Positions 7,663 to 24,974 of a stretch of 26,319 nt of DNA are shown here, one piece after another; position 1 is the stretch's first letter; every line of letters begins with the position of its first letter. The notes beneath the pieces were generated by a model. The model saw only the letters and a program-made list of their open reading frames with translations, was not told the origin of the DNA and ran no database searches. Source of the DNA: a virus; the IMG/VR virus record IMGVR_UViG_3300032240_000564, positions 1 to 26,319 of that record. The stretch is one strand, 5' to 3'. A program made the translations under genes and the position numbers.

Positions 7663-8395
7663 TTTAACTGAGAGCCTTCGTCCTAACGATTTGGCCAATC
7701 TAGTTAACGAAGTTTTTACGGTTGACCAATACAAGAGTAAAATGGGTGAAGACTCAGATATTGTTGTACTAGGATTTAAAGTTAAAGAAAAAAACCCAGC
7801 AACAGATCTAGTTGAGTTTATTGAACGCGGTTATAATTACGTGCTTGATGCTGATATGAGTACTGGTGAAGAACATGATGGGCAATACCAAGTGTTCGTT
7901 GAATTAGAACGCAATCAACAACTTCCAGAAAACTTAAAACATTTGCTAGCAGGTGTTGCTAAATTAACTGGTACTAAAGAGTGGCGTTTTAGATATCAAC
8001 AAGCTCCAAGCAGTGTAGAGTTTAATGAACAAAGTGTAATGGAACATATTCCAACAACTCCAGAAGATTACAATATGAAAATTAACGAAATTAAAACTAC
8101 CGATGTTCAACAATTCTTTGATCAAGGCACAGTAGAGGTTGCTTTAGAATCTGACAACACTATCAAGTTTAGCAAAACATACAGTGGTGACGTTGATGCC
8201 AAGTTTATAGCAATTGGTGAATACGATGATGTTAAACAAACTTTGCCAGGTGCATTATCATTAGATGAAAGCAGTCAAAGTCAAGTAACGTTTTTAACAA
8301 AATATTTAGGAAATTACGATATCAATAAAATTGGCAACAAGTTCTTAATAAGAAATGGCGCCAAAGCCGTTGTTATAGAAAAAGGTAAGTGGTAA
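7628..8395 (+). CDS. Conserved phage protein, 255 aa, partner of previous gene
   Basis: Starts ATG 7628 after AGGA, inside the 3' end of the previous gene. It opens with a Gln-rich leader, then LRPNDLANLVNEVFTVDQYK, a beta/alpha region (DIVVLGFKVKEKNPATDLVE, RGYNYVLDADMSTGE, YQVFVELERN) and a C-terminal domain (SGDVDAKFIAIGEYDDVKQT, FLIRNGAKAVVIEKGKW). Always seen beside the preceding protein in related phages as I recall, with no characterised function. No membrane segment or catalytic motif is visible. Confidence 0.75.
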   Translation: MTQQKKQHQQHNLTESLRPNDLANLVNEVFTVDQYKSKMGEDSDIVVLGFKVKEKNPATDLVEFIERGYNYVLDADMSTGEEHDGQYQVFVELERNQQLPENLKHLLAGVAKLTGTKEWRFRYQQAPSSVEFNEQSVMEHIPTTPEDYNMKINEIKTTDVQQFFDQGTVEVALESDNTIKFSKTYSGDVDAKFIAIGEYDDVKQTLPGALSLDESSQSQVTFLTKYLGNYDINKIGNKFLIRNGAKAVVIEKGKW

Positions 8396-8880
8396 TGAAT
8401 CAAATTCAGTGGATGTTGAGCATTATACCTGATGCAGTACTAAACTGGTTTTACTGGATAATTATTGCGGTCGGTATATCCGGCATGTTTGCTGGGTGGC
8501 TTGCTAAATTTATTCCTATGTATGGAAGATACATTGGCTTTATTAAGCCTGTTGGTATTGCATTGGTAATACTAGGTGTATGGCTACGTGGTGGTTACGA
8601 TACTGAAATGGCATGGCGTGCCAAAGTAGAGGAAGCACAAGCCAAGGTTGCCAAAGCTGAAGAAGCTAGTAAAGAAGTTAATGCTAAACTAGAAGCTAAA
8701 ATTAAAGAAAAACAAAAGGTGCGTGTTGAGTACTACGCTACTGTTAAAGAACGTATTGTAGAAAAAGAAAAATTGATTGATGCCAAATGCGAATTAGACC
8801 CAGCGGTACCAAAAATCTTAAACGATGCCGCAAAAAATCCAGCTAAAATAGGCACTGTAACAATAGAGGTTAACAAATGA
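8395..8880 (+). CDS. i-spanin (Rz-like) with two membrane segments
   Basis: 161 residues from ATG 8395, which overlaps the upstream stop by one base. Two hydrophobic spans lie at ~15-38 and ~46-65. A long Ala/Lys/Glu coiled coil follows (~70-128), then a C-terminal block with one Cys and LDPAVPKILNDAAKNP, similar to the periplasmic end of Rz-type proteins. The next gene starts within its stop codon and encodes an Rz1-like lipoprotein, the standard two-component spanin layout that fuses inner and outer membranes in lysis. Classical i-spanins have one N-terminal span; two spans here need an unusual topology. Confidence 0.7.
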   Translation: MNQIQWMLSIIPDAVLNWFYWIIIAVGISGMFAGWLAKFIPMYGRYIGFIKPVGIALVILGVWLRGGYDTEMAWRAKVEEAQAKVAKAEEASKEVNAKLEAKIKEKQKVRVEYYATVKERIVEKEKLIDAKCELDPAVPKILNDAAKNPAKIGTVTIEVNK

Positions 8881-13882: not shown

Positions 13883-14725
13883 ATGACAGATCACTATCAA
13901 ACTCTTGGCATTAATAAAAATGCATCTCCGGATGACATAAAAAAGGCTTACCGAAAGTTGGCAAGCCAGCATCATCCTGACAAAGGGGGCGATACTAAAA
14001 AATTCCAAGATATTCAAACTGCATATGCTACCCTAAGCGATCCAGAAAAGCGTCATCAGTATGATAATCCTCAACCGCAGTTTCATGGTGATCCATTTGG
14101 TGGATTTCATGGCGGTGGTATGCCACCAGGGTTTGAAGATATATTTGGACAGATGTTTGGTAACGGCGGCAATCCTTTCTTTGGGCAAGGGTTTAGACAA
14201 CAGCCACAACGTAATAGAATATTAAACATTCAAACTGCTATTTCGTTAGAAGAAGCATTTCATGGTAAAGATTTATTGGCCAACTTACAATTACCTAGTG
14301 GACGCCAACAAGTTTTAGAAATTAAAATCCCTGCTGGTATTAGCGATGGCACAACATTGCGATTGGCTGGTATGGGTGACGACTCTGTTCCAGGTGCTCC
14401 TAGAGGAGACATACATTTAACAGTTAATGTTAATCCGCATAATAAATTTGCAAGACAAGGTGACGATTTACTATGCAAGGTAGATATTACTTGTATAGAT
14501 GCAATGCTTGGCAAAACAATCAATGTAACCACAATAGATGGCAGAACTTTGGAAGTTACTGTCAATCCAGGAACGCAACACGGGCAAATACTTGCGGCAG
14601 CAGGCTACGGCATGCCAAAAGTTAGTGATAACCGTTTCAAAGGCCGTATGTTAATATCTGTTGATATTTCTATACCTAAACTAACTGAAGAACAAAAAGC
14701 AATCCTCCAACAACTAACCATTTAA
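13883..14725 (+). CDS. dnaJ: DnaJ/CbpA-like co-chaperone (class B)
   Basis: 280 residues. The J domain occupies ~4-62: HYQTLGINKNASPDDIKKAY, the HPD tripeptide at 31-33, then FQDIQTAYATLSD. A Gly/Phe-rich linker (~65-108, FGGFHGGGMPPGF) leads directly into the C-terminal substrate-binding domains (ILNIQTAISLEEAFHGKDL, LEIKIPAGISDGTTLRLAGM, GDIHLTVNVNPHNKFARQGD). The Cys-rich zinc finger of classical DnaJ is absent, so it is CbpA/DjlA-like class B. It should stimulate the ATPase of host DnaK and feed clients to it. The HPD motif is intact. No Shine-Dalgarno is seen in the short leader. Confidence 0.9.
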   Translation: MTDHYQTLGINKNASPDDIKKAYRKLASQHHPDKGGDTKKFQDIQTAYATLSDPEKRHQYDNPQPQFHGDPFGGFHGGGMPPGFEDIFGQMFGNGGNPFFGQGFRQQPQRNRILNIQTAISLEEAFHGKDLLANLQLPSGRQQVLEIKIPAGISDGTTLRLAGMGDDSVPGAPRGDIHLTVNVNPHNKFARQGDDLLCKVDITCIDAMLGKTINVTTIDGRTLEVTVNPGTQHGQILAAAGYGMPKVSDNRFKGRMLISVDISIPKLTEEQKAILQQLTI

Positions 14726-14733
14726 ATACTCTT

Positions 14734-15261
14734 ATGCTAGAAATAATTAAATTCCCCCATGAAATATTAAGACACAAAGTTGAAGAGTTCGATTTTGAAA
14801 ATTGTTTACTGGATCCAGTAAAGTTAGAAGCAGAGCTAATTGAAACAATGCTGGCTAATGACGGCATTGGTTTAGCCGCAGTACAAGTTGGTATACCAGT
14901 ACGTGTGTTTGCCATGGGCTATAGAGCAAGCCCAGAACTAGCCCAAGCATTTTTTAATCCAATAGTTGTCAGTTGTACTGATGAAGTTGAAGATCTGGAA
15001 GAAGGATGTTTGAGTTTTCCAGGCATTTATGTTAATATTAAAAGGCCTAAAAAAATATTAGCACGTTGGCAAGACAGCAAAGGAGAATGGCAAGAGTCAG
15101 AATTCGATGGTTATAATTGTAAGTGTTTTTTACATGAGTTAGATCATTTAGAAGGCATTGTATTTCAAGATAGGGTTAGTAGTTTAAAATGGTCTTTGGC
15201 TGTTAAGAAATCAAAACCTAAAAAAATTAAAAAAGTAAGATTAAAAAGGAAATTTAAATAA
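14734..15261 (+). CDS. def: Peptide deformylase with basic C-terminal tail
   Basis: 175 residues with all three deformylase motifs: GIGLAAVQ (44-51), EGCLS (90-94; Cys92 binds the metal) and HELDH (134-138; two His ligands and catalytic Glu135). It removes the N-formyl group from nascent proteins. Marine T4-like phages often carry a short form without the C-terminal helix. This one has an extra ~24-residue tail (152-175) that is almost entirely Lys/Arg with hydrophobics, ending KKVRLKRKFK. Bacterial deformylase uses its C-terminal helix to bind the ribosome, so the tail may play that part. Translation is coupled to the next gene (TAATG). Confidence 0.92.
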   Translation: MLEIIKFPHEILRHKVEEFDFENCLLDPVKLEAELIETMLANDGIGLAAVQVGIPVRVFAMGYRASPELAQAFFNPIVVSCTDEVEDLEEGCLSFPGIYVNIKRPKKILARWQDSKGEWQESEFDGYNCKCFLHELDHLEGIVFQDRVSSLKWSLAVKKSKPKKIKKVRLKRKFK

Positions 15262-17540
15262 TGCTGGAGCCAAGTAAGGACTTAGAGAAGATTTTTGAAC
15301 ACGCTGTTGAAACAGCAGTTACTCATAATCACGAATATATTACATTAGAACATTTTTTATACGGGTTACTACATAATCAACCTTTTACAGAAATTCTAAC
15401 TGGTTTTGGTACTGACATTGATTCCTTTAGAGCAAATGTTGAAAAATATATTGAAGAAGATTTGTCAGTCATTGCAAATCCCTCTTCCGAAAAACCTAAG
15501 AAAACAGAAACAGTTGAACGTATGTTAAACCGTGCGTTTACCAGTGTTGTATTCCAAGGACGTCAAACTATCGATCACATTGATTGTTTTATCAGCTTGT
15601 TTGCAGAAAAGAAAAGCCATGCAAGATACTTTATTGCCAAGGCCAACATTGAAAAAGACAAGTTCATTGATTTCCTAAACAAAGAATCAATCAATATTGA
15701 AAAAGAAGAAGACGATAAACAAAATCCGCAAATTGCAAGAATGATTAATCAGTTTTGCGTGGACTTGACTGCAAAAGCCAAGGCTAAAAAGATTGATCCT
15801 GTCATTGGGCGTGAGACTGAGATTGATGACATTACACTGGTGTTGGCTCGACGTACCAAAGCTAATGTTATCTTAATCGGTGATCCTGGTGTAGGTAAAA
15901 CTGCCATTGCTGAAGGTATTGCCCGCAAAATCATTGAAGGCAAAGTTCCTAAGTTTATTCAAGGACACACAGTACTAAGTTTAGATATTAGCGCCATGTT
16001 GGCTGGTAGCAAATATCGCGGCGACTTTGAAGAAAGACTTAAAGGTGTTATCTCTGGTATTGAAAAACGTGGCAACTGCATTTTGTTTATTGACGAAGCA
16101 CATATGATGAACGGTGCTGGTGCGGCAGGCAACAGCAGTAACGACATGGCCAATATGCTTAAGAGTTCGTTAGGCAAAGGTAAAATTAAAGTCATTGCTA
16201 GTACTACATGGGAAGAATATCGTAAACACTTTGAAAAGGATCGTGCGCTAATGCGTCGTTTCCAACGTGTCACAGTTGACGAGCCTACAGAAGCAGTGGC
16301 CATTAAGATCCTTAAAGGACTTAAGAAGTATTACGAAAAACATCACAATGTTAAGATCACTAATCAAGCAATTATTGATTCAGTCAAGTACTCAGTCAAA
16401 TATATTACTGATCGCAAACTGCCAGATAAGGCAATTGACTTGATCGATTGTGCATCGGCTCGTTTTAAAGTACGTGATGAAGAAGGTGGAGTTGTTGATC
16501 ACGAAGAAATTTTGTTCGAGATTAGTAAAATTGCAAATCTCCCCTTGGAGCAAGTTACAAACAAAGAAACTTCTAATCTATCTAGTTTAGAAAAGAATAT
16601 GAAGTCAACTGTACACGGACAAGAAAAAGCAATTGAAAACTTGCTAGACAAAGTGTTTATTGCACAGTCAGGACTAAAATCATTAAACAAGCCAATTGGT
16701 AGTTTCTTGTTTGTTGGCCCTACAGGTGTTGGTAAAACTGAAACTGCTAAACAACTTGCAACTAACTTAGGTGTTAAGCTGGTACGTTTTGATATGAGTG
16801 AATATCAAGAACAACACAGCGTGGCTAAATTTATTGGTAGCCCACCAGGCTATGTAGGGTTTGACGATAATGCTGGCCAACTAATTACACAATTACAAGA
16901 AAATCCTAACTGTGTTCTATTGTTAGACGAAGTTGAAAAAGCACATCCTAGTGTATTGACAGTGATGTTACAGTTAATGGACAATGGATTTATTACAGGA
17001 TCAAATGGTAAAAAGGCTGATGGACGCAATGCTATCATTATTATGACCAGCAACTTAGGTGCTGCCGATAATGAAAAGAACGGAGTTGGGTTTGGTAGCT
17101 TGGAACGAGATGGTGACCCAAAAGATGCCGTCAATAAATTCTTTGCTCCTGAATTCCGTAATCGTTTAGATGGCATTATCAAATTTGGTAAGTTAAGTAC
17201 TGAAACGATGGCACTGATTGTTAAGAAGTTTATCAAAGAACTTAACGCATTGGTCAAAGATAAGAACATCGCTGTTAAGGCCACTGATGCCGCTATTGAG
17301 CATTTAATTAAAGAAGGCTTTGATAGCAAAATGGGTGCTCGTCCATTACAACGTACTATTGACAACATGATCAAACGTCCTTTGAGTAAGGAGATATTGT
17401 TTGGTCGATTAATTAATGGCGGAGTTGTAGAGATAGATATAACGGACAACAAACTTGTTTTACATTTTGTTGATCCGTTACCAGTAGAAAAGGTCAGCAA
17501 TGATACCAACACAACACAAGACGACCAAGTTATTTTATAA
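15261..17540 (+). CDS. clpA: ClpA/ClpC-type AAA+ unfoldase
   Basis: 759 residues, the length of bacterial ClpA. The Clp N-domain (~1-145) has both repeats (ITLEHFLYGLL; IDHIDCFISLF). First AAA module: Walker A GDPGVGKT (207-214), pore loop KYRG (251-254), Walker B ILFIDEAH (274-281). Second: Walker A GPTGVGKT (486-493), pore GYVG (530-533), Walker B LLLDEVEK (553-560), arginine fingers RNR (633-635), sensor 2 GARP (692-695). No ClpB-type middle coiled coil is present. The ClpP-docking loop reads VGF (609-611), the ClpC-like version of ClpA's IGL, so docking to host ClpP is plausible. All catalytic elements are intact. No clpP or clpS lies nearby. Confidence 0.93.
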   Translation: MLEPSKDLEKIFEHAVETAVTHNHEYITLEHFLYGLLHNQPFTEILTGFGTDIDSFRANVEKYIEEDLSVIANPSSEKPKKTETVERMLNRAFTSVVFQGRQTIDHIDCFISLFAEKKSHARYFIAKANIEKDKFIDFLNKESINIEKEEDDKQNPQIARMINQFCVDLTAKAKAKKIDPVIGRETEIDDITLVLARRTKANVILIGDPGVGKTAIAEGIARKIIEGKVPKFIQGHTVLSLDISAMLAGSKYRGDFEERLKGVISGIEKRGNCILFIDEAHMMNGAGAAGNSSNDMANMLKSSLGKGKIKVIASTTWEEYRKHFEKDRALMRRFQRVTVDEPTEAVAIKILKGLKKYYEKHHNVKITNQAIIDSVKYSVKYITDRKLPDKAIDLIDCASARFKVRDEEGGVVDHEEILFEISKIANLPLEQVTNKETSNLSSLEKNMKSTVHGQEKAIENLLDKVFIAQSGLKSLNKPIGSFLFVGPTGVGKTETAKQLATNLGVKLVRFDMSEYQEQHSVAKFIGSPPGYVGFDDNAGQLITQLQENPNCVLLLDEVEKAHPSVLTVMLQLMDNGFITGSNGKKADGRNAIIIMTSNLGAADNEKNGVGFGSLERDGDPKDAVNKFFAPEFRNRLDGIIKFGKLSTETMALIVKKFIKELNALVKDKNIAVKATDAAIEHLIKEGFDSKMGARPLQRTIDNMIKRPLSKEILFGRLINGGVVEIDITDNKLVLHFVDPLPVEKVSNDTNTTQDDQVIL

Positions 17541-18590: not shown

Positions 18591-18598
18591 AATAAATA
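18591..18598 (+). promoter_or_regulatory. Late-type promoter octamer (AATAAATA)
   Basis: AATAAATA fits NATAAATA and is followed by CTTG, as the first octamer is followed by CTTA. It lies 44 bases before ATG 18643 in the 73-base gap and gives a ~39-base leader that contains AAGGA (18632-18636). A sigma70-like TTGAAT-16-TATGAT (18600-18627) overlaps but would start transcription inside the Shine-Dalgarno. Confidence 0.55.
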
Positions 18599-18642: not shown

Positions 18643-19017
18643 ATGTTATTAAAAGAATTCTTTGGCAAAGCCATTGACATCAATAAGGAAATGCAGAAGA
18701 ATCGAGACGATGACAACATCGGTAACGATTTGTTCTGGTTTATTATCGATCATGATCGCCTTCACAAAGATCACTTTCACCCTCTAGCTAAAAAAATTCA
18801 CCACTCTCACAAAAGCGGCAAGCTAGATAAAGAGAACATGGTCAAAGATTTCTTACCTATGGTTAAAAAAGGTTGTATGGAATTTTATGAAAAAAATAAG
18901 TTGCCAGGCAGACTACAAGATCATTTCGACAAAGAGTTTGTAAAAGACATGTGTGAACGATTGTTTGATCATTATCGTGAAGACATTGTTCAAGGCAAAT
19001 ACAAGATTGGGGTTTAA
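18643..19017 (+). CDS. Hypothetical protein with targeting-like N-terminus, 124 aa
   Basis: First gene behind the 18591 octamer. It begins MLLKEFFGKAIDINKE, similar to the short N-terminal peptides of the following genes. The rest is helical, His/Lys/Asp-rich (FWFIIDHDRLHKDHFHPLAK, KIHHSHKSGKLDKENMVKD, GRLQDHFDKEFVKDMCERLF). Related proteins occur in pelagimyophage-type genomes without an assigned function. Many His residues could bind metal, but no canonical site is seen. Confidence 0.7.
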   Translation: MLLKEFFGKAIDINKEMQKNRDDDNIGNDLFWFIIDHDRLHKDHFHPLAKKIHHSHKSGKLDKENMVKDFLPMVKKGCMEFYEKNKLPGRLQDHFDKEFVKDMCERLFDHYREDIVQGKYKIGV

Positions 19018-19018
19018 G

Positions 19019-19792
19019 ATGAAGTTATTAGAAGGTGGAAACATTTGGGATGACGTTGTTACTGGTTTTGACCCAGCAGTTGTTGCCAAACCTTTAGAAG
19101 CTGAAACACAAAGATACCTAAAAGGTGTTGGTGTCGAAGTATATGTTGTAGGCAGCGGATACGAACCAAGAAAAGACGCTGAAGGAAATCCAGTTCCAAG
19201 TAATGACTTAGATGTTATGATTGATTTGCCTATTAGTATGCAACACTTTGGAACTAAGGATAGTTCTACAACACGCAAGGCGTTGGCCGCATATTTAAAT
19301 CAACAAGGTATTCAAACAAAGTTGGCAGGTGTAACTGTACACTGCCGTATTCCAATGGACGGACAATTTTACCAAGTAGACGTTAAAGTTGTTAACAATG
19401 CTGCCAAAGTAGCACAGTTCCATAGACACAGTATTCCACAAGGTAGTCCATATAAAGGTGTTAATAAACAAATGATTATGAACACACTGGCCAGTAGTAA
19501 AAATATGTTATGGAGTCCAGACGAAGGACTATATGCAAGAGATGCCACTGGAAAGAAAGCAAACTTACTAAGTGACGAATGGGATACCATTGCACAATAT
19601 CTTTTAGGTAAAGGTGCTACTGGTAAGGATTTAGGTAGTGTAGAATCTATTATGGCTAAGATTCCAGACGAAGCAGTTAAAGCAGATATTATGGCCAAAG
19701 CCAAAGCCAGTGCAAGCTGGCAGGCCGCAACTCCCACAGTACAAGAAGGTTCACGCGAGTGGTTTAGATTTTTAATGGATAACATTCTATGA
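19019..19792 (+). CDS. Pol-beta-superfamily nucleotidyltransferase
   Basis: 257 residues from ATG 19019; an upstream in-frame ATG lies inside the previous gene. The N-terminal domain carries VVGSG (43-47), then DLDVMID (63-69) after a 15-residue insert, and a third carboxylate in YQVDVKVV (118-125). This is the hG[GS]...[DE]h[DE]...h[DE]h pattern of the superfamily that includes CCA-adding enzymes, poly(A) polymerases and kanamycin nucleotidyltransferases. A helical C-terminal half follows, ending SREWFRFLMDNIL. The substrate is unknown. It is followed by a ligase-like protein and an HxGH nucleotidyltransferase. Confidence 0.75.
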   Translation: MKLLEGGNIWDDVVTGFDPAVVAKPLEAETQRYLKGVGVEVYVVGSGYEPRKDAEGNPVPSNDLDVMIDLPISMQHFGTKDSSTTRKALAAYLNQQGIQTKLAGVTVHCRIPMDGQFYQVDVKVVNNAAKVAQFHRHSIPQGSPYKGVNKQMIMNTLASSKNMLWSPDEGLYARDATGKKANLLSDEWDTIAQYLLGKGATGKDLGSVESIMAKIPDEAVKADIMAKAKASASWQAATPTVQEGSREWFRFLMDNIL

Positions 19793-20928
19793 AAATACGT
19801 GAACTGTTAAAAGAAGCCGCGGCACCCGCAGTAGGTAGAAAATATCAACACCTTGAAGATTTAGTGTTTACTAATGGCGCACTGGGTGGCCTACATGCTG
19901 TTGAACGATTACAAAGCATGACTAAAGAAGGTCATGGACTTGAATTAAAATGGGATGGTAGTCCTGTAGTATATTGGGGGCGGGATGAACAAGGACGATT
20001 TAGTTTAATTCCTAAAAATGCCTGGGAATATTTAAAGCGTGGCAAGACATCTTTAGATAATGGAATCAACACCGTTATGTACAGTCCTGAAGATATTCGA
20101 GCATTTATTTTAGGTACTGGTAAAGTTGAACCTGGTAAAGAAAAACAACGTGAACATTTTGCCAGTGGCATGGCTAATTTATGGAGATACTTTGAAGCCG
20201 CAAGTCCAGATCGAGGTTATTTAGAAGGCGGTATTTTATTCTCTCCAGATCAGCCACCTAAACTAAATCCACAAAGTCAAGAATACGATTTTAAACCCAA
20301 CATCACAGCATTCCATATTCCAGTAGGTAGTGAGCTGGGCAAGCGCATTAAGACTGCAAAAGTTATGGTGGCGGCTACTGGATATTATGAAACATTAGGT
20401 AGCAGTGAAGAAGGACGTTATCCTGATGCTCCAAATTTAAGTACCCCAGATATTATTGTCCAAGGAACTACATATGTTGAAGCTCCACCAAATTTAGATC
20501 CTGCAGGCATAGCAAAAGTTGAACAATACATTTCAAAAAATGCGCAGTCCATTGACAATTTCTTATCCCCAAAACCTGGATTAAGTAAACCAGGTGATAT
20601 ACTTTACAAATTCTATAATCAAAATTTGCGTATACCAGGAACTAAAACAAAATTTACACAATGGGCGCAACAAAATTTATCAGCTGGACAAGCACAAAAG
20701 GTATTGGGCGATCCTGGATTAGATATTGTACTACACGCTGTAGAAATGATCAGCCATGAAAAGTTAAAACTAATTCAATTAATCAGTGCCGGTACACACG
20801 GTGGTATTAGACAAACAAAACCAGAAGGATATGTACAGGCACACCCAGGTACACAATTTAAAAATGATTTACCAGGACAGTTCGTTAAAACTATAGACCA
20901 GGCCAACTGGGCTCCAAGGAAAGATTAA
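19789..20928 (+). CDS. Ligase/capping-enzyme-like protein (KxDG motif)
   Basis: 379 residues; ATG overlaps the previous stop (ATGA). It starts MKIRELLKEAAAPAVG, like a T4 capsid-targeting peptide with an L-K-E cleavage-type site. The segment LELKWDGSPVVYWGRDEQGR contains E-x-K54-x-D-G, the motif I of DNA/RNA ligases and capping enzymes, where the Lys takes the nucleotide. LEGGILF (145-151) could be motif III and DFKPNITAFHIP a later core strand; other motifs are not certain. The C-terminus (~330-379) is helical with a Pro/Gly/Gln-rich end. A related family in marine phages is known only as a domain of unknown function, as I recall. Nucleotidyl transfer is an inference. Confidence 0.65.
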   Translation: MKIRELLKEAAAPAVGRKYQHLEDLVFTNGALGGLHAVERLQSMTKEGHGLELKWDGSPVVYWGRDEQGRFSLIPKNAWEYLKRGKTSLDNGINTVMYSPEDIRAFILGTGKVEPGKEKQREHFASGMANLWRYFEAASPDRGYLEGGILFSPDQPPKLNPQSQEYDFKPNITAFHIPVGSELGKRIKTAKVMVAATGYYETLGSSEEGRYPDAPNLSTPDIIVQGTTYVEAPPNLDPAGIAKVEQYISKNAQSIDNFLSPKPGLSKPGDILYKFYNQNLRIPGTKTKFTQWAQQNLSAGQAQKVLGDPGLDIVLHAVEMISHEKLKLIQLISAGTHGGIRQTKPEGYVQAHPGTQFKNDLPGQFVKTIDQANWAPRKD

Positions 20929-20929
20929 T

Positions 20930-22126
20930 ATGTTATTAAGAAATATTTTTGAAACTTTAGCAAGAACTGGAGAAGGTAAAGCCGCAGTTGTTGGCTGGGG
21001 TCGCGGTATGGGACACAAGGGACACATGTTCTTGGCTAGTAGCGTAATTACACAGGCCAAAGAAACAAATGCAGATCCTTATTTTGTTGTTAGTCGTACT
21101 GTTGGCAAAGATGATCCAATTAATCCAGAAGAAAAACTAGCAATCTATAAAAAAGTATTTCCACAAAGCGGACATATTTTTCAAACTGCCACTGAAGAAA
21201 TGCCAGACTTAACTCGTGTATTAACACAGTTACAGGGCATGGGCTACACTGATGTTACAGTTGTAGTTGGTGCAGATCAAGTTAAGGCATTGGGATATGT
21301 TAAAAATTACAACGGAAAACCAGACAAATCCGGCAATATTCCGTTCAGTTTTAACACATTAAACGTCATAAGTCGTCAAGAAACTAACGATCCTAGCCGT
21401 GATCAAGAAGGGCCACGTGCTACACCTATGCGAGACGTATTAATGGACCCAACTAAAAGCGAACAACAAAAGTTTGCAGTTTGGCGTGATGCCATGAATG
21501 ATGAATTAAGTGACGACGAAGTTCGTGATTTAATGAATAAAGCACAGCAACGTATGCAGGCATTGGTTAAACCTAAGAAAGGTGTGGCGGAGGCTGGAAG
21601 TCCAGCACAGCAGGCCGCTATTGCTATTGCTAAAAAGAAAGCAAAAGGTGTTTCTGAAACTCCTATTGACGGGCCAAATGACAATCCTAAGATTTACGGG
21701 TGGCAAGGCGCTAATCCATCAGAATTAAAAACTCGTATCATGAGAGCCAGAGGACAAATAAAGGATTTATCACAACGAGCTGACACAGATAGTTTATTAG
21801 GTTGGGAAAGTATTGCCCGTCAGTTTCCTGAGCTGGCAATGAACATTGAACAAATACGTCATGCTATTGAAGAACTAGCTAAGAAACGTAAAAAGGGCGG
21901 CATTGGTTCTAGAGGTATTGATCCCAATATTGGCGAGGAAATGATGCCCACTAGCAATTTTACTGGAAGTAAAAAGAATAAACTAGGGTCTGCAGGACAA
22001 TTAAAAGCAACTGACGACCATGCTCGTGCAGGCGATTTAGTAGGCAGTGCTGAAAGTATTCGTGAAAATTGGGAACTAGAAAAAGCCAACGCATTATCTA
22101 AGTTAATTGAAAGACAATTAAAATGA
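20930..22126 (+). CDS. HxGH nucleotidyltransferase (NMN adenylyltransferase-like) with C-terminal extension
   Basis: 398 residues. Residues ~17-190 form a Rossmann-type nucleotidyltransferase: VVGWGRGMGHKGHMFLA (HKGH 29-32), the DPINPEEKLAIYKKVFP segment usual in phage members of this family, VVVGADQ, and ATPMRDVL in place of the C-terminal ISxTxxR element. NMN adenylyltransferase and glycerol-phosphate cytidylyltransferase are the nearest functions. The C-terminal ~200 residues are a separate, Lys-rich, helical region (KGVSETPIDGPNDNPKIYGW, LLGWESIARQFPELAMN) ending NALSKLIERQLK. It could make NAD+ or activate another phosphate compound. The N-terminus MLLRNIFETLA resembles its neighbours. 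Confidence 0.72.
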   Translation: MLLRNIFETLARTGEGKAAVVGWGRGMGHKGHMFLASSVITQAKETNADPYFVVSRTVGKDDPINPEEKLAIYKKVFPQSGHIFQTATEEMPDLTRVLTQLQGMGYTDVTVVVGADQVKALGYVKNYNGKPDKSGNIPFSFNTLNVISRQETNDPSRDQEGPRATPMRDVLMDPTKSEQQKFAVWRDAMNDELSDDEVRDLMNKAQQRMQALVKPKKGVAEAGSPAQQAAIAIAKKKAKGVSETPIDGPNDNPKIYGWQGANPSELKTRIMRARGQIKDLSQRADTDSLLGWESIARQFPELAMNIEQIRHAIEELAKKRKKGGIGSRGIDPNIGEEMMPTSNFTGSKKNKLGSAGQLKATDDHARAGDLVGSAESIRENWELEKANALSKLIERQLK

Positions 22127-22404
22127 AACAGTATTATATTACAAAAGAAAACATAAGCCAGAACAGCCCCGATGACTGTTTTCTAGCCCCAGAAGATCCT
22201 ATACATGAATTAAAAATAGCCAGCTACATGGGCGGATTAGGCAGTACCGTTAAATTAGCCGAATATCGAAACAAAGTAGCAGAAGCAAACAAACTAAATA
22301 CTGACAGCGCCGGAATGAGTGGGAACGACAAGGCTCAATACATGAAGGCAAATAATATACGACCAGGAACTCCTGCGTGGTTTGAATTATGGTACGGAAA
22401 ATAA
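22123..22404 (+). CDS. Small conserved phage protein, 93 aa
   Basis: ATG 22123 overlaps the previous stop (ATGA). MKQYYITKENISQNSPDDCF, LAPEDPIHELKIASYMGGLG and the C-terminal RPGTPAWFELWYGK form a pattern that I recognise from pelagimyophage-type genomes, where it is unannotated. It is soluble and partly helical, without enzymatic motifs. It sits between the nucleotidyltransferase and the mosaic protein. Confidence 0.72.
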   Translation: MKQYYITKENISQNSPDDCFLAPEDPIHELKIASYMGGLGSTVKLAEYRNKVAEANKLNTDSAGMSGNDKAQYMKANNIRPGTPAWFELWYGK

Positions 22405-22405
22405 T

Positions 22406-24010
22406 ATGAACAACGAATTTAAAACTAAAATTTATAAAGATGCAACCGTCTATGTATTAGAAAGTGCAACTGGCGGATCTACATCTGCTGGTGGAGCAAC
22501 ACTTAGCAAACCATTAGGAAAAGATCAAATTGTCATGCAGAGCAGAAATGGTCCTAAAGAAATTCCTGCTAGTAAGCCACGTAACTTTGTAGCCAAGAAC
22601 GCTAAAATGGGCGGTGCTGGTCAACACAAAGATAAAAAGAAAGCTGAAAAGCAAGGTGATGTAAAACATCGTAAACCATTTGCCGAGGGCGATTACAATC
22701 ACGGATTTGCAGATCCCAATGCTCCTAAATTAGGTGCAAGTGATCAATTCCGTAATCGTGAGCGTAATGCAGGTCTAGAGCACGAACAAAATAATATTCA
22801 AATTTACATTAACGGCAAGCCATGGAAAGTTATTCCTGGCAAGGGGTATGCTGATAGTCCAGAAGAGTGGAAATACTTAGACAACATGAAAACATGGGCC
22901 GCTAAAAAATCAGCAGCCACTGGTAAAAAATGGACAGTAAGTTTAACTGGAGCTCCACTTAGTGAAGACCATAGTGATATGGGCAAGGGTTGGGGACAAG
23001 GTAGTCAAGCCACTGCATATCCGTCTAGTGCATTATCTGGTGCAGGACACAATGACCGTACCATGGAAAATCCAGACTGGTATAATGATGAAGCCAACAG
23101 TATGACTACTGCTCAATTAAAGAGTCTAGTTAAGCATGCCTCCAAATTGCGTCATGCCGTTAAATCAATGGGTACTGACACATTAGAGCCATGGCAACAA
23201 GCTAAAGTTACCAAGGCCGCAGACTATTTAGATGCGGTGTTTAATGCCGTAGATGACGAACATGACATGGGCGAAGGAAACCATCCAGATGAAAAAGAAG
23301 ATAAAGCACTTATCCGTAAGATGGTCAAACAACAAGCATTGAAACAAGAACGTATGGCAGAAGGTGAACGCACTATGAGTCGTGCTGCCAAAGGTAACGA
23401 GAAATATGGCAAGGATGGTATGAAGGCCCTGGCCAAGGCAGGTCGCGAAGGTGCCAGTGAAAAGAAATTAGATGCTATTCGCGACAAACATAACCACTAT
23501 AACGAAGAGTGGAGTCAAAAGTATAAGAGCAGTATCAATTGCAGTCATCCAAAAGGTTTCAGTCAAAAGGCTCACTGTGCTGGTAAGAAAAAGCACGAAG
23601 AAAGTATGATGACCATGGAAGCAGTATGTCCAGATTGCGGTATGTGCCAAACACACGGAAACCTTAATGAGATTAAGAAAGGTGCTAAGGACTCAAACGG
23701 ATTTACTAAGTGCTGGCCAGGACATCACGCCGCTGGTACTAAGAAAGGTAAGAACGGTGGGCAAGTTCGTAACTGTGTACCCAATGAAGATATAGAAAAA
23801 GATGCTTACATGTCTGAGTTAAATGCTAAACTAGCAGAAAAGATTCCTGCCAATGCTCCAGTAGATCGTTGGATTAAAGATTTTGACAAAGCGTCAAAAA
23901 CTCCTAATGCTAAGGGCCATCACCAGTTTAAAAATAAAAGTAAAGACAAGGTCAGACAAATGGCCATAGCGGCATCGTACGGTGCTAAAAATCCTAAAAA
24001 GAAAAAATGA
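22406..24010 (+). CDS. Mosaic protein built of recurring marine-phage modules, 534 aa
   Basis: Start ATG 22406 follows the previous stop by one base. The chain is a string of short modules: ~102-186 (DQFRNRERNAG, IQIYINGKPWKVIPGKGYAD, WTVSLTGAPLSE); ~228-290 (QLKSLVKHASKLRHAVKSMG, LEPWQQAKVTKAADYLDAVF); ~321-365 (EKYGKDGMKALAKAGREG); ~371-397 (SSINCSHPKGFSQKAHCAGK); a C-rich VCPDCGMCQTHG (407-418); ~426-461 (FTKCWPGHHAAGTKKGKNGG, QVRNCVPNE); ~485-534 (PVDRWIKDFDKASKTP, RQMAIAASYGAKNPKK). Several recur in other marine phage proteins as I recall. It is strongly basic overall, so DNA contact inside the capsid or a prohead core role is plausible. Not an enzyme by any visible motif. Confidence 0.75.
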   Translation: MNNEFKTKIYKDATVYVLESATGGSTSAGGATLSKPLGKDQIVMQSRNGPKEIPASKPRNFVAKNAKMGGAGQHKDKKKAEKQGDVKHRKPFAEGDYNHGFADPNAPKLGASDQFRNRERNAGLEHEQNNIQIYINGKPWKVIPGKGYADSPEEWKYLDNMKTWAAKKSAATGKKWTVSLTGAPLSEDHSDMGKGWGQGSQATAYPSSALSGAGHNDRTMENPDWYNDEANSMTTAQLKSLVKHASKLRHAVKSMGTDTLEPWQQAKVTKAADYLDAVFNAVDDEHDMGEGNHPDEKEDKALIRKMVKQQALKQERMAEGERTMSRAAKGNEKYGKDGMKALAKAGREGASEKKLDAIRDKHNHYNEEWSQKYKSSINCSHPKGFSQKAHCAGKKKHEESMMTMEAVCPDCGMCQTHGNLNEIKKGAKDSNGFTKCWPGHHAAGTKKGKNGGQVRNCVPNEDIEKDAYMSELNAKLAEKIPANAPVDRWIKDFDKASKTPNAKGHHQFKNKSKDKVRQMAIAASYGAKNPKKKK

Positions 24011-24693
24011 AAATCTTAGAGTTTATTAAAAGTGATTATGAGATTCACAGTCGCGATAAACTAGACAAGATTTTAACCGAGTTATGTCAAGCCGTTATCA
24101 AAGGACAACAAGATGATCCTGTAAAATATGGGATGGTTGCGGCCTGTGTCTTAGACCCCCAAAACCGCAAAGTCTTGAGTGTTAATGAGGCGGCTCAGGA
24201 CGATACTAGAAAACACGCAGAACGTGTCGCCATTGAAGCATATACCAAAAAGTATGGCGAAGTGCCATCTGGTAGTATTATACTGACTACATTAAGTCCA
24301 TGCAATGAAGATGATACAGACATGGCTGATGAAAGATTTGGTGAAAGCTGTACTGATTTGATTAACAACAGCAACGTGAGAAAAGTATATTGCGGATACA
24401 TTGATCCTAGTCAAGAAGATGAACATAACAAATACACTTTAGAAGAAACTGGCAACAGTGATGTTAAAGATTTATGTAAAAAATTTGCTGATACATTTTT
24501 AAAAAAAGATGTTGATGAAAACTTTGCAGATGGTAAACACCCAGGACGCAAAGGACTTGCCAAACGCAGTGGAGTAAATACCAAAGCCAGTGTCAGCAGT
24601 CTACGCAAAACTGCTAAACACAGTTCAGGTGAAAAACAACGTATGGCACATTGGCTAGCCAATATGAAAGCTGGGAGAGCAAAGAAAAAATGA
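24007..24693 (+). CDS. Cytidine/nucleotide deaminase-like protein with basic tail
   Basis: 228 residues. It begins MKILEFIKSDYEI, close to the T4 capsid-targeting peptide. The deaminase core has HAE (70-72: zinc His and proton-shuttle Glu) and LSPC (96-99) with a second Cys in GESCTDLI (Cys115). The usual PCxxC spacing is replaced by PC-x15-C, so the zinc site has an insert containing DERFGESC. The C-terminal ~55 residues (GKHPGRKGLAKRSGVNTKAS, SLRKTAKHSSGEKQRMAHWL, ANMKAGRAKKK) form a separate Lys/Arg-rich module found on other marine phage proteins. Likely substrates are cytosine compounds, free or in nucleic acid; this is not decidable from sequence. Confidence 0.75.
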   Translation: MKILEFIKSDYEIHSRDKLDKILTELCQAVIKGQQDDPVKYGMVAACVLDPQNRKVLSVNEAAQDDTRKHAERVAIEAYTKKYGEVPSGSIILTTLSPCNEDDTDMADERFGESCTDLINNSNVRKVYCGYIDPSQEDEHNKYTLEETGNSDVKDLCKKFADTFLKKDVDENFADGKHPGRKGLAKRSGVNTKASVSSLRKTAKHSSGEKQRMAHWLANMKAGRAKKK

Positions 24694-24974
24694 GAGCGCA
24701 CGAATTTATTAACGAAGATTGGAACAAAGTTAACCATCACGACAAAACTGATGGACTAAGCCAAAAAGCTGTCAATGCTTATCGTCGTGAACACCCAGGT
24801 AGTAAATTAAAGACTGCCGTAACTACTAAACCCAGTAAGTTAAAAGCTGGCAGCAAAGATGCCAAACGCCGTAAATCATTCTGTGCTAGAATGTCAGGTA
24901 ATAAAGGCCCAATGAAAGACAAACACGGCAAACCTACACCCAAAGCAAAAGCGTTAAGTCGCTGGAATTGTTAA
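24690..24974 (+). CDS. Small basic protein with capsid-targeting-like N-terminus, 94 aa
   Basis: ATG 24690 overlaps the deaminase stop (ATGA). The first residues, MRAHEFINEDWNK, are the closest match here to the T4 internal-protein targeting peptide, with I-N-E fitting the gp21 protease consensus (I/L-x-E). The rest is a highly basic conserved module: GLSQKAVNAYRREHPGSKLK, SKDAKRRKSFCARMSGNKGP, ending ALSRWNC. Such modules are frequent in cyano- and pelagimyophages; one related family carries a DUF number (DUF6321, from memory). A DNA-binding internal capsid protein is the favoured inference. Its stop codon overlaps that of the convergent next gene. Confidence 0.75.
   Translation: MRAHEFINEDWNKVNHHDKTDGLSQKAVNAYRREHPGSKLKTAVTTKPSKLKAGSKDAKRRKSFCARMSGNKGPMKDKHGKPTPKAKALSRWNC

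Follow-up and report, generated by a model that had tools for sequence, protein, structure and literature searches.

In phage T4, the record X04567 annotates residues -10 to -1 of IPII, i.e., its first ten residues, as a removed peptide, and mutational work on IPIII showed that targeting needs residues 4 and 7, while processing needs residues 8 and 10 (PMC9026906). The capsid-targeting sequence (CTS) was already proposed there as a general uptake route for various proteins in T4-like phages; therefore, the CTS principle itself is not new. "Non-structural" virion enzymes of cyanophages, including NMNAT-like proteins, SAM hydrolase, kinase, and a Cas9-annotated nuclease, have been found repeatedly, and their entry route is unstated. 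NMNAT-like/cytidylyltransferase proteins recur in the virions of several cyanophages, and a targeting mechanism is not stated in the proteome paper of either S-CREM2 (PMC10665884) or S-SCSM1 (PMC9602691).

We analyzed a DNA stretch of 26,319 nucleotides (hereafter, the window), a 26.3 kb piece of the genome of an uncultured freshwater T4-superfamily phage. The original prediction held that consecutive genes at 18643–24974 share a T4-like capsid-targeting N-terminus and possibly form a packaged enzyme set. The T4-like tag, together with relatives of some of these enzymes inside the particles of other phages, indicates that the phage probably carries an enzyme set into the cell with its DNA.

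Results

The window encodes a clamp loader, PhoH, endolysin, peptide deformylase, and a Clp-type protease in addition to further virion genes; being a fragment, it contains no head genes. A search of isolated phages for its kin gave no near match. G004 (97 kb), the closest relative found, is largely syntenic with the window (p3 is 89% identical) and also encodes gp20, a gp67-like gene, gp21, gp22, and gp23, of which gp20, gp22, and the gp67-like gene were assigned from position and appearance. Genes for a DnaJ-like protein, peptide deformylase, and a Clp-type ATPase are clustered beside the block at 13883–17540 of the window, and the cluster is conserved in G004.

The block consists of eight genes on the plus strand (p1–p8). 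The first, p1 (18643..19017), is an all-helical protein of 124 aa, and its comparison with PDB structures gave no fold match. The nucleotidyltransferase of the original prediction is p2 (19019..19792). Human pol lambda and pol beta match the AlphaFold model of a fused homologue of p2 (Foldseek; best E 3.5e-6, pol lambda), and G54 S55 and D67 L68 D69 of the active-site motif GS...DLDVM are invariant; by this modeled palm fold with GS...DxD, p2 is polymerase-X-like. The third gene, p3 (19789..20928), encodes a DUF6267 protein (PF19782, E 6.8e-14) whose K54 W55 D56 G57 is invariant in 11 divergent members, as far as P-HM1 (24% identity). It had been described as ligase-like, a description of which the invariant KxDG remains. 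A search of the sequences of PDB structures at E<=10 gave no match to p3, hence no solved ligase, and ligases were absent among the structural matches listed for the fused model, which cover the p2 domain; with the KxDG motif and no similarity to solved ligases, p3 was not assigned as an ATP-dependent ligase. The HxGH transferase proved to be p4 (20930..22126), a cytidylyltransferase/NMNAT-like enzyme with a modular C-terminal extension, in which the motif reads GRGMGHKGHM (phrog_3041, E 2.6e-20). In the Prochlorococcus phage P-HM1 (L223 197–1959), DUF6267 and cytidylyltransferase genes, T4-GC 71 and 190, are adjacent and carry no leaders; the two seem to be an old gene pair that gained leaders later in some lineages.

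Comparison with homologues showed that p5 (22123..22404) is a small conserved protein without a leader (it starts MKQYYIT; conserved MKQY[RK]IT) and that p6 (22406..24010) is a basic multi-module protein with a different conserved start, MNNEFK...Y[VIT]LE/SA (a slash marks the predicted or known cleavage position here and below). The expected deaminase is p7 (24007..24693), of the cytidine/deoxycytidylate type (PF00383, E 2.6e-11, above the cut-off), and p8 (24690..24974) is a DUF6321 basic protein (PF19846, E 6.3e-18). In the T7-like pelagiphage HTVC031P (L229 1186–1431), a DUF6321 gene without a leader lies between the scaffold and capsid genes, a position that suggests a head role without any leader.

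The block had also been placed behind a late-type octamer, which is correct for the octamer type of this clade and not for the canonical sequence. No canonical late octamer (TATAAATA) precedes the block; instead, the variant AATAAATA, a T4-type late promoter octamer in this phage group's form (NATAAATA), lies at 18591..18598 on the plus strand, 52 bp upstream. Copies of NATAAATA lie no more than 70 bp upstream of called starts in 13 of 16 cases in G004 and 26 of 31 in G001 (~3.5% expected), and NATAAATA marks gene starts in the window's clade. Roughly one in two relatives has a similar octamer upstream of p1.

All five N-terminal peptides named in the original prediction are encoded in the block as described: MLLKEFFGKA (p1, from 18643), MKIRELLKEA (p3, from 19789), MLLRNIFETLA (p4, from 20930), MKILEFIKS (p7, from 24007), and MRAHEFINE (p8, from 24690). 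The T4 cleavage pattern is exact, as claimed, in MKIRELLKE/A of p3 (19789–19815) and MRAHEFINE/D of p8 (24690–24716), the only two with (I/L)xE exactly at residue 9. The site of p4 is IFE, at residue 8 (MLLRNIFE/T), and the sole (I/L)xE within the leaders of p1 and p7 is at E5, with none at residues 8–10. That is, p3 and p8 fit a short T4-type leader, p4 fits it partly, and p1 and p7 fit its targeting half only. The second gene, p2, which had not been listed, has a very short leader, MKLLE/GG, comparable to MELITE of T4 Alt.

The leader motif is present in five of the eight block genes and in none of the 33 other complete genes of the window (Fisher p=7e-5). In G004, it is present in 6/10 block genes vs 2/86 genes elsewhere, and these two are the gp67-like prohead-core gene (MFLREFIYFD) beside gp20/gp21 and a DnaJ-like false hit; thus, genome-wide, the leader in G004 is confined to the block and a prohead-core-type gene, the false hit aside. 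A pattern copied from the T4 leader, with one residue fewer, matched 2 of 42 genes of the window, compared with none of 665 internal Met/Val positions; over six related genomes, the corresponding counts were 15 of 908 gene starts and 5 of 23,094 internal positions. Counted by family in seven records, the leader is found on 27 of 482 families with different bodies, about seven of the 27 being expected by chance, vs 1.5% of internal Met positions (p=1e-8). The cargo at first also looked poor in (I/L)xE sites outside the leaders (0.71 vs 1.21), but with one representative per family the difference vanished (1.07 vs 1.15), and this mark was rejected.

The small gene in the place of gp67, between gp20 and gp21, starts like the cargo in three genomes: MFLREFIYFD in G004 (8324–8572), MILRELFYID in G001 (112620–112859), and MLLNEFIYFN in G002 (130336–130590). 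In G004 and G001, a late octamer of its own accompanies it.

A common N-terminus could also arise from translation signals, or from upstream DNA copied between neighbors, and have no targeting role. The leader DNA is indeed repeated between p7 and p8 and between p1 and p4 (75–77% alike), and the block genes are overlapping and late, which also favors this reading. However, leaders distant from one another in the genome have residues in common and differ in their bodies. In addition, L3, E5, F6, and F7 of the p1 leader are 92–96% conserved in 24 homologues against a whole-alignment mean of 48%, so that the conservation of E5, F6, and F7 exceeds that of the body, and leader-bearing proteins are over-represented in the virion proteome of S-CREM2 (see below). 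We consider copying or translation signals a very improbable origin of the leaders.

The protease expected to cut the leaders is of the gp21 type. The window lacks head genes, and the gene was found in the syntenic G004 and five other relatives; i.e., among 16 larger relatives searched, six had gp21 (PF03420), the rest being fragments or giving no match. In gp23 of six relatives, L[AMR]E/[SA] stands directly before the conserved mature part, where the T4 equivalent is LTE/A, and the scaffold gp22 has 6–9 [IL]xE[AGS] sites vs 1.3–1.5 expected. As read from these sequences, the predicted site preference of the clade's head protease is the T4 rule, and the evidence from gp23 and gp22 is independent of the leaders. 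As a positive control, the leader pattern was applied to T4 itself, where it matched 6 of 244 called genes, including 61.1, ipII, ipIII, gp21, and gp22. T4 gene 61.1 is annotated as hypothetical, and its start (MKTFKEFIKE/D; L281 967–1131, T4 18966–19130) matches at all four key positions.

These sites also bear on whether the common start is cut at all. The proteins might reside in or on the virion with an uncut helix that docks to the scaffold or head, and would then count as minor parts of the head, not as enzymes for delivery. The gp67-like core gene starts similarly (MFLREFIYFD) without a site at residues 8–10, and p1 and p7 likewise lack one, all of which would suit docking. On the other hand, several block proteins have recognizable enzyme folds, and a terminal [ILV]xE/[AGST] at residues 8–10 is found in the majority of leaders elsewhere. 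An uncut docking helix is thus unlikely, and we retain the cleaved, T4-type leader as the preferred reading.

Published virion proteomes of relatives contain leader-bearing proteins, including a p4 homologue, in agreement with the original prediction. In the Synechococcus phage S-CREM2, six proteins match the strict T4 pattern, five of which were detected in purified virions (PMC10665884, Table 3): the SAM hydrolase (MKDFDSFLEE), gp13 (MKDLHSFLTE), the kinase (VKRFDAFLTE), gp136 (MQTFSMFFSE), and the cytidylyltransferase (MKNFSSFLTE/A). They account for 5 of 28 detected non-structural proteins, compared with a single one among 167 undetected proteins (p=2e-4) and none among 24 structural ones, and the S-CREM2 leaders agree with the key IPIII positions 4, 7, 8, and 10. 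The virion NMNAT of S-SCSM1 begins MKSFLQFLKE/A (PMC9602691), and p4 is homologous to both virion transferases, i.e., the cytidylyltransferase of S-CREM2 and the NMNAT of S-SCSM1. The DUF6321 domain of p8 is 57% identical to a domain of the S-CREM2 virion protein gp137, itself without a canonical leader, and a p6 module weakly resembles a module of the S-CREM2 virion protein gp160 (E 0.001). Homologues of p3 and p7 were looked for in the virions of S-CREM2 and S-SCSM1 and not found. ORF30 of S-SCSM1 (MKTFKQFMSE) is leader-like, yet it has no virion-protein annotation. In the Cas9-annotated nuclease of the S-CREM2 virion (L217 7704–10313), RFASFMAE/AA occurs ~20 residues in; the annotated start is probably misplaced and may lie upstream of the true one, which could then yield a targeting leader.

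Such detections could instead reflect ordinary late intracellular enzymes of auxiliary metabolism that contaminate virion preparations. This concern is raised by the proteome authors themselves: abundant non-virion proteins may occur in CsCl preparations of S-CREM2 (PMC10665884), and the S-SCSM1 paper gives the same caution (PMC9602691). However, contamination does not predict a leader, yet five of the six leader-bearing S-CREM2 proteins were detected, whereas replication enzymes such as the polymerase and primase were not. The recurrence of NMNAT-like/cytidylyltransferase proteins in the virions of several cyanophages also argues against it, and we give contamination hardly any credence as an account of the leader-bearing proteins.

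Some homologues have no full leader, namely the marine P-HM1 GC71 (p3) and GC190 (p4) and the HTVC008M homologue of p4, and the DUF6321 proteins of two podophages without gp21 have no leader, an absence that speaks for the T4-type reading. Leader-driven packaging of every homologue of these domains is ruled out by P-HM1, HTVC008M, and the podophage DUF6321 proteins. As the P-HM1 and HTVC008M homologues have no full leader and gp137 is in S-CREM2 virions without a canonical one, such proteins do not all carry the leader, nor do they need it.

In 37 distinct relatives, p2 and p3 form a single chain. The AlphaFold model of one such fusion has two folded domains, with residues 4–17 and the junction at 244–259 below pLDDT 50, so that the junction is predicted to be disordered. 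In an alignment of 23 junctions, position -2 is I/L/M/V in 23/23, the next position is variable, E is invariant (23/23), and A usually follows. [IL]xE occurs in 33 of 37 junctions vs 2.4% of segments elsewhere in these proteins; as the 37 fusions are related, these are not 37 independent events. The start of p2, LLE/GG, matches the junction site. We infer that the p2–p3 fusion is a polyprotein cut by gp21; since the junction carries its own cleavage-type site, the chain would be cut into separate enzymes.

A further element lies inside p4. The inter-module spacer AAGGTGTGGCGGAGGCT (21579..21595, plus strand) is a DNA-conserved in-frame element that encodes GVAE/A, and it is the one good copy in the window. 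In relatives, the p4 tail and p6 are strings of 50–80-residue modules parted by (E/K)(Q/E/K)GVAE(G/A/D), in which particular codons are conserved (GGT 77/84, GTG 62/84, GCG 61/75). Close matches in the genomes read are in frame and essentially only in multi-module cargo-type genes. Of 176 exact matches in the viral collection, 173 encode GVAEG in frame; many contigs have several copies, and 52 of 56 distances between copies are multiples of three. The exact spacer DNA AAGGTGTGGCGGAAGG occurs in at least 120 viral contig stretches, examples of spacer loci being L003 2951–5443, L093 11145–13643, L463 2297–3655, L403 233–2863, and 21579–21595 of the window. A 16-mer search of 257 billion bases of bacterial genomes gave, among the matches listed, scattered singles at about the number expected by chance; therefore, we claim no bacterial source for the spacer. 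We found no mention of the spacer in phages in the papers searched.

Leaders were found on 56 of 146 spacer proteins vs 495 of 2991 others (p=1e-9), counts in which only the ratio is informative because the pattern was loose and the loci were biased. The 118 modules fall into 85 clusters, and few modules match a known family. One relative carries, in order, the leader MRAQEFITE, a GNAT domain, a spacer, an ART-like module, a spacer, and a ParB-like module, the last two modules being assigned by eye. The conserved codons of the spacer may mean that its DNA has a function of its own, for example as a recombination joint, or that the copies have a recent common origin, and its V-x-E/G would suit a protease. 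It is possible, although we hold it tentatively, that freshwater T4-superfamily phages carry capsid-targeted modular polyproteins, composed of a leader, shuffled modules, and an (E/K)QGVAE/G spacer that would act twice: as AAGGTGTGGCGGAAGG, in-frame homology for exchange, and as a head-protease site freeing the modules inside the prohead.

Discussion

Packaging by a T4-type leader is, with good probability, the best explanation of the block as its sequences stand. The packaged enzyme set of the original prediction is supported by the enrichment of leaders, by gp21 in relatives, and by the virion proteomes of relatives. We propose that the block genes form a cargo operon that a freshwater T4-superfamily phage expresses late. 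The first ~nine residues of the block proteins would bind the prohead scaffold core, as the T4 capsid-targeting sequence does, and the gp21 protease of the clade would then cut the leaders after [ILV]xE. The mature enzymes would be retained beside the packaged genome and pass into the host when it is ejected. The predicted cargo comprises the polymerase-X-like nucleotidyltransferase, the KxDG protein (DUF6267), the cytidylyltransferase/NMNAT-like enzyme, the deaminase, the DUF6321 basic protein, and the multi-module proteins; in relatives, neighboring cargo genes appear to fuse, with a cleavage-type site of their own at the junction. For the window's phage itself, we infer both targeting and cleavage, as well as injection. 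Early in infection, the cargo could plausibly serve for protection or as a kit for repair or nucleotide/NAD handling.

A T4-type leader on the non-structural virion enzymes of cyanophages would supply a mechanism, and also a sequence test by which injected cargo could be predicted in T4-like phages that abound in the environment. The spacer between the modules hints at cargo built from exchangeable parts; if this is true, spacer/module polyproteins would be a cassette system for assembling cocktails of injected effectors.

Among the known systems, the ejection proteins of SPN3US/phiKZ-type jumbo phages resemble the present case, by literature description, in that the head protease processes cargo, as is predicted here, whereas the lineage, protease, and leader all differ. 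Polyvalent proteins (Iyer et al. 2017, PMC5512222) are strings of unrelated domains that are predicted to be injected, and the module strings here may be of a like kind; unlike in polyvalent proteins, a GVAEG spacer conserved at the DNA level links the modules, and a T4-type leader opens some of the chains. Among the virion NMNAT-like/cytidylyltransferase, SAM hydrolase, and kinase proteins of the T4-like cyanophages S-CREM2, S-SCSM1, and S-SM1, the leaders seen in S-CREM2 and S-SCSM1 have the same design. Like T4 IPI, IPII, IPIII, and Alt, the block has a short N-terminal peptide of the MKTYQEFIAE/A type on otherwise unrelated proteins, and it shares with the T4 internal proteins a gp21-type protease (in relatives), a late-type octamer, and the (I/L)xE site. 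Unlike in T4, the usual leader has one residue fewer (MRAHEFINE), is carried by a nucleotidyltransferase, a deaminase, and multi-module proteins, and in the window's relatives is also found on fused chains with internal sites. The block would extend a known mechanism to the enzyme cargo of environmental T4-like phages, and the new element would be cargo that is fused and modular.
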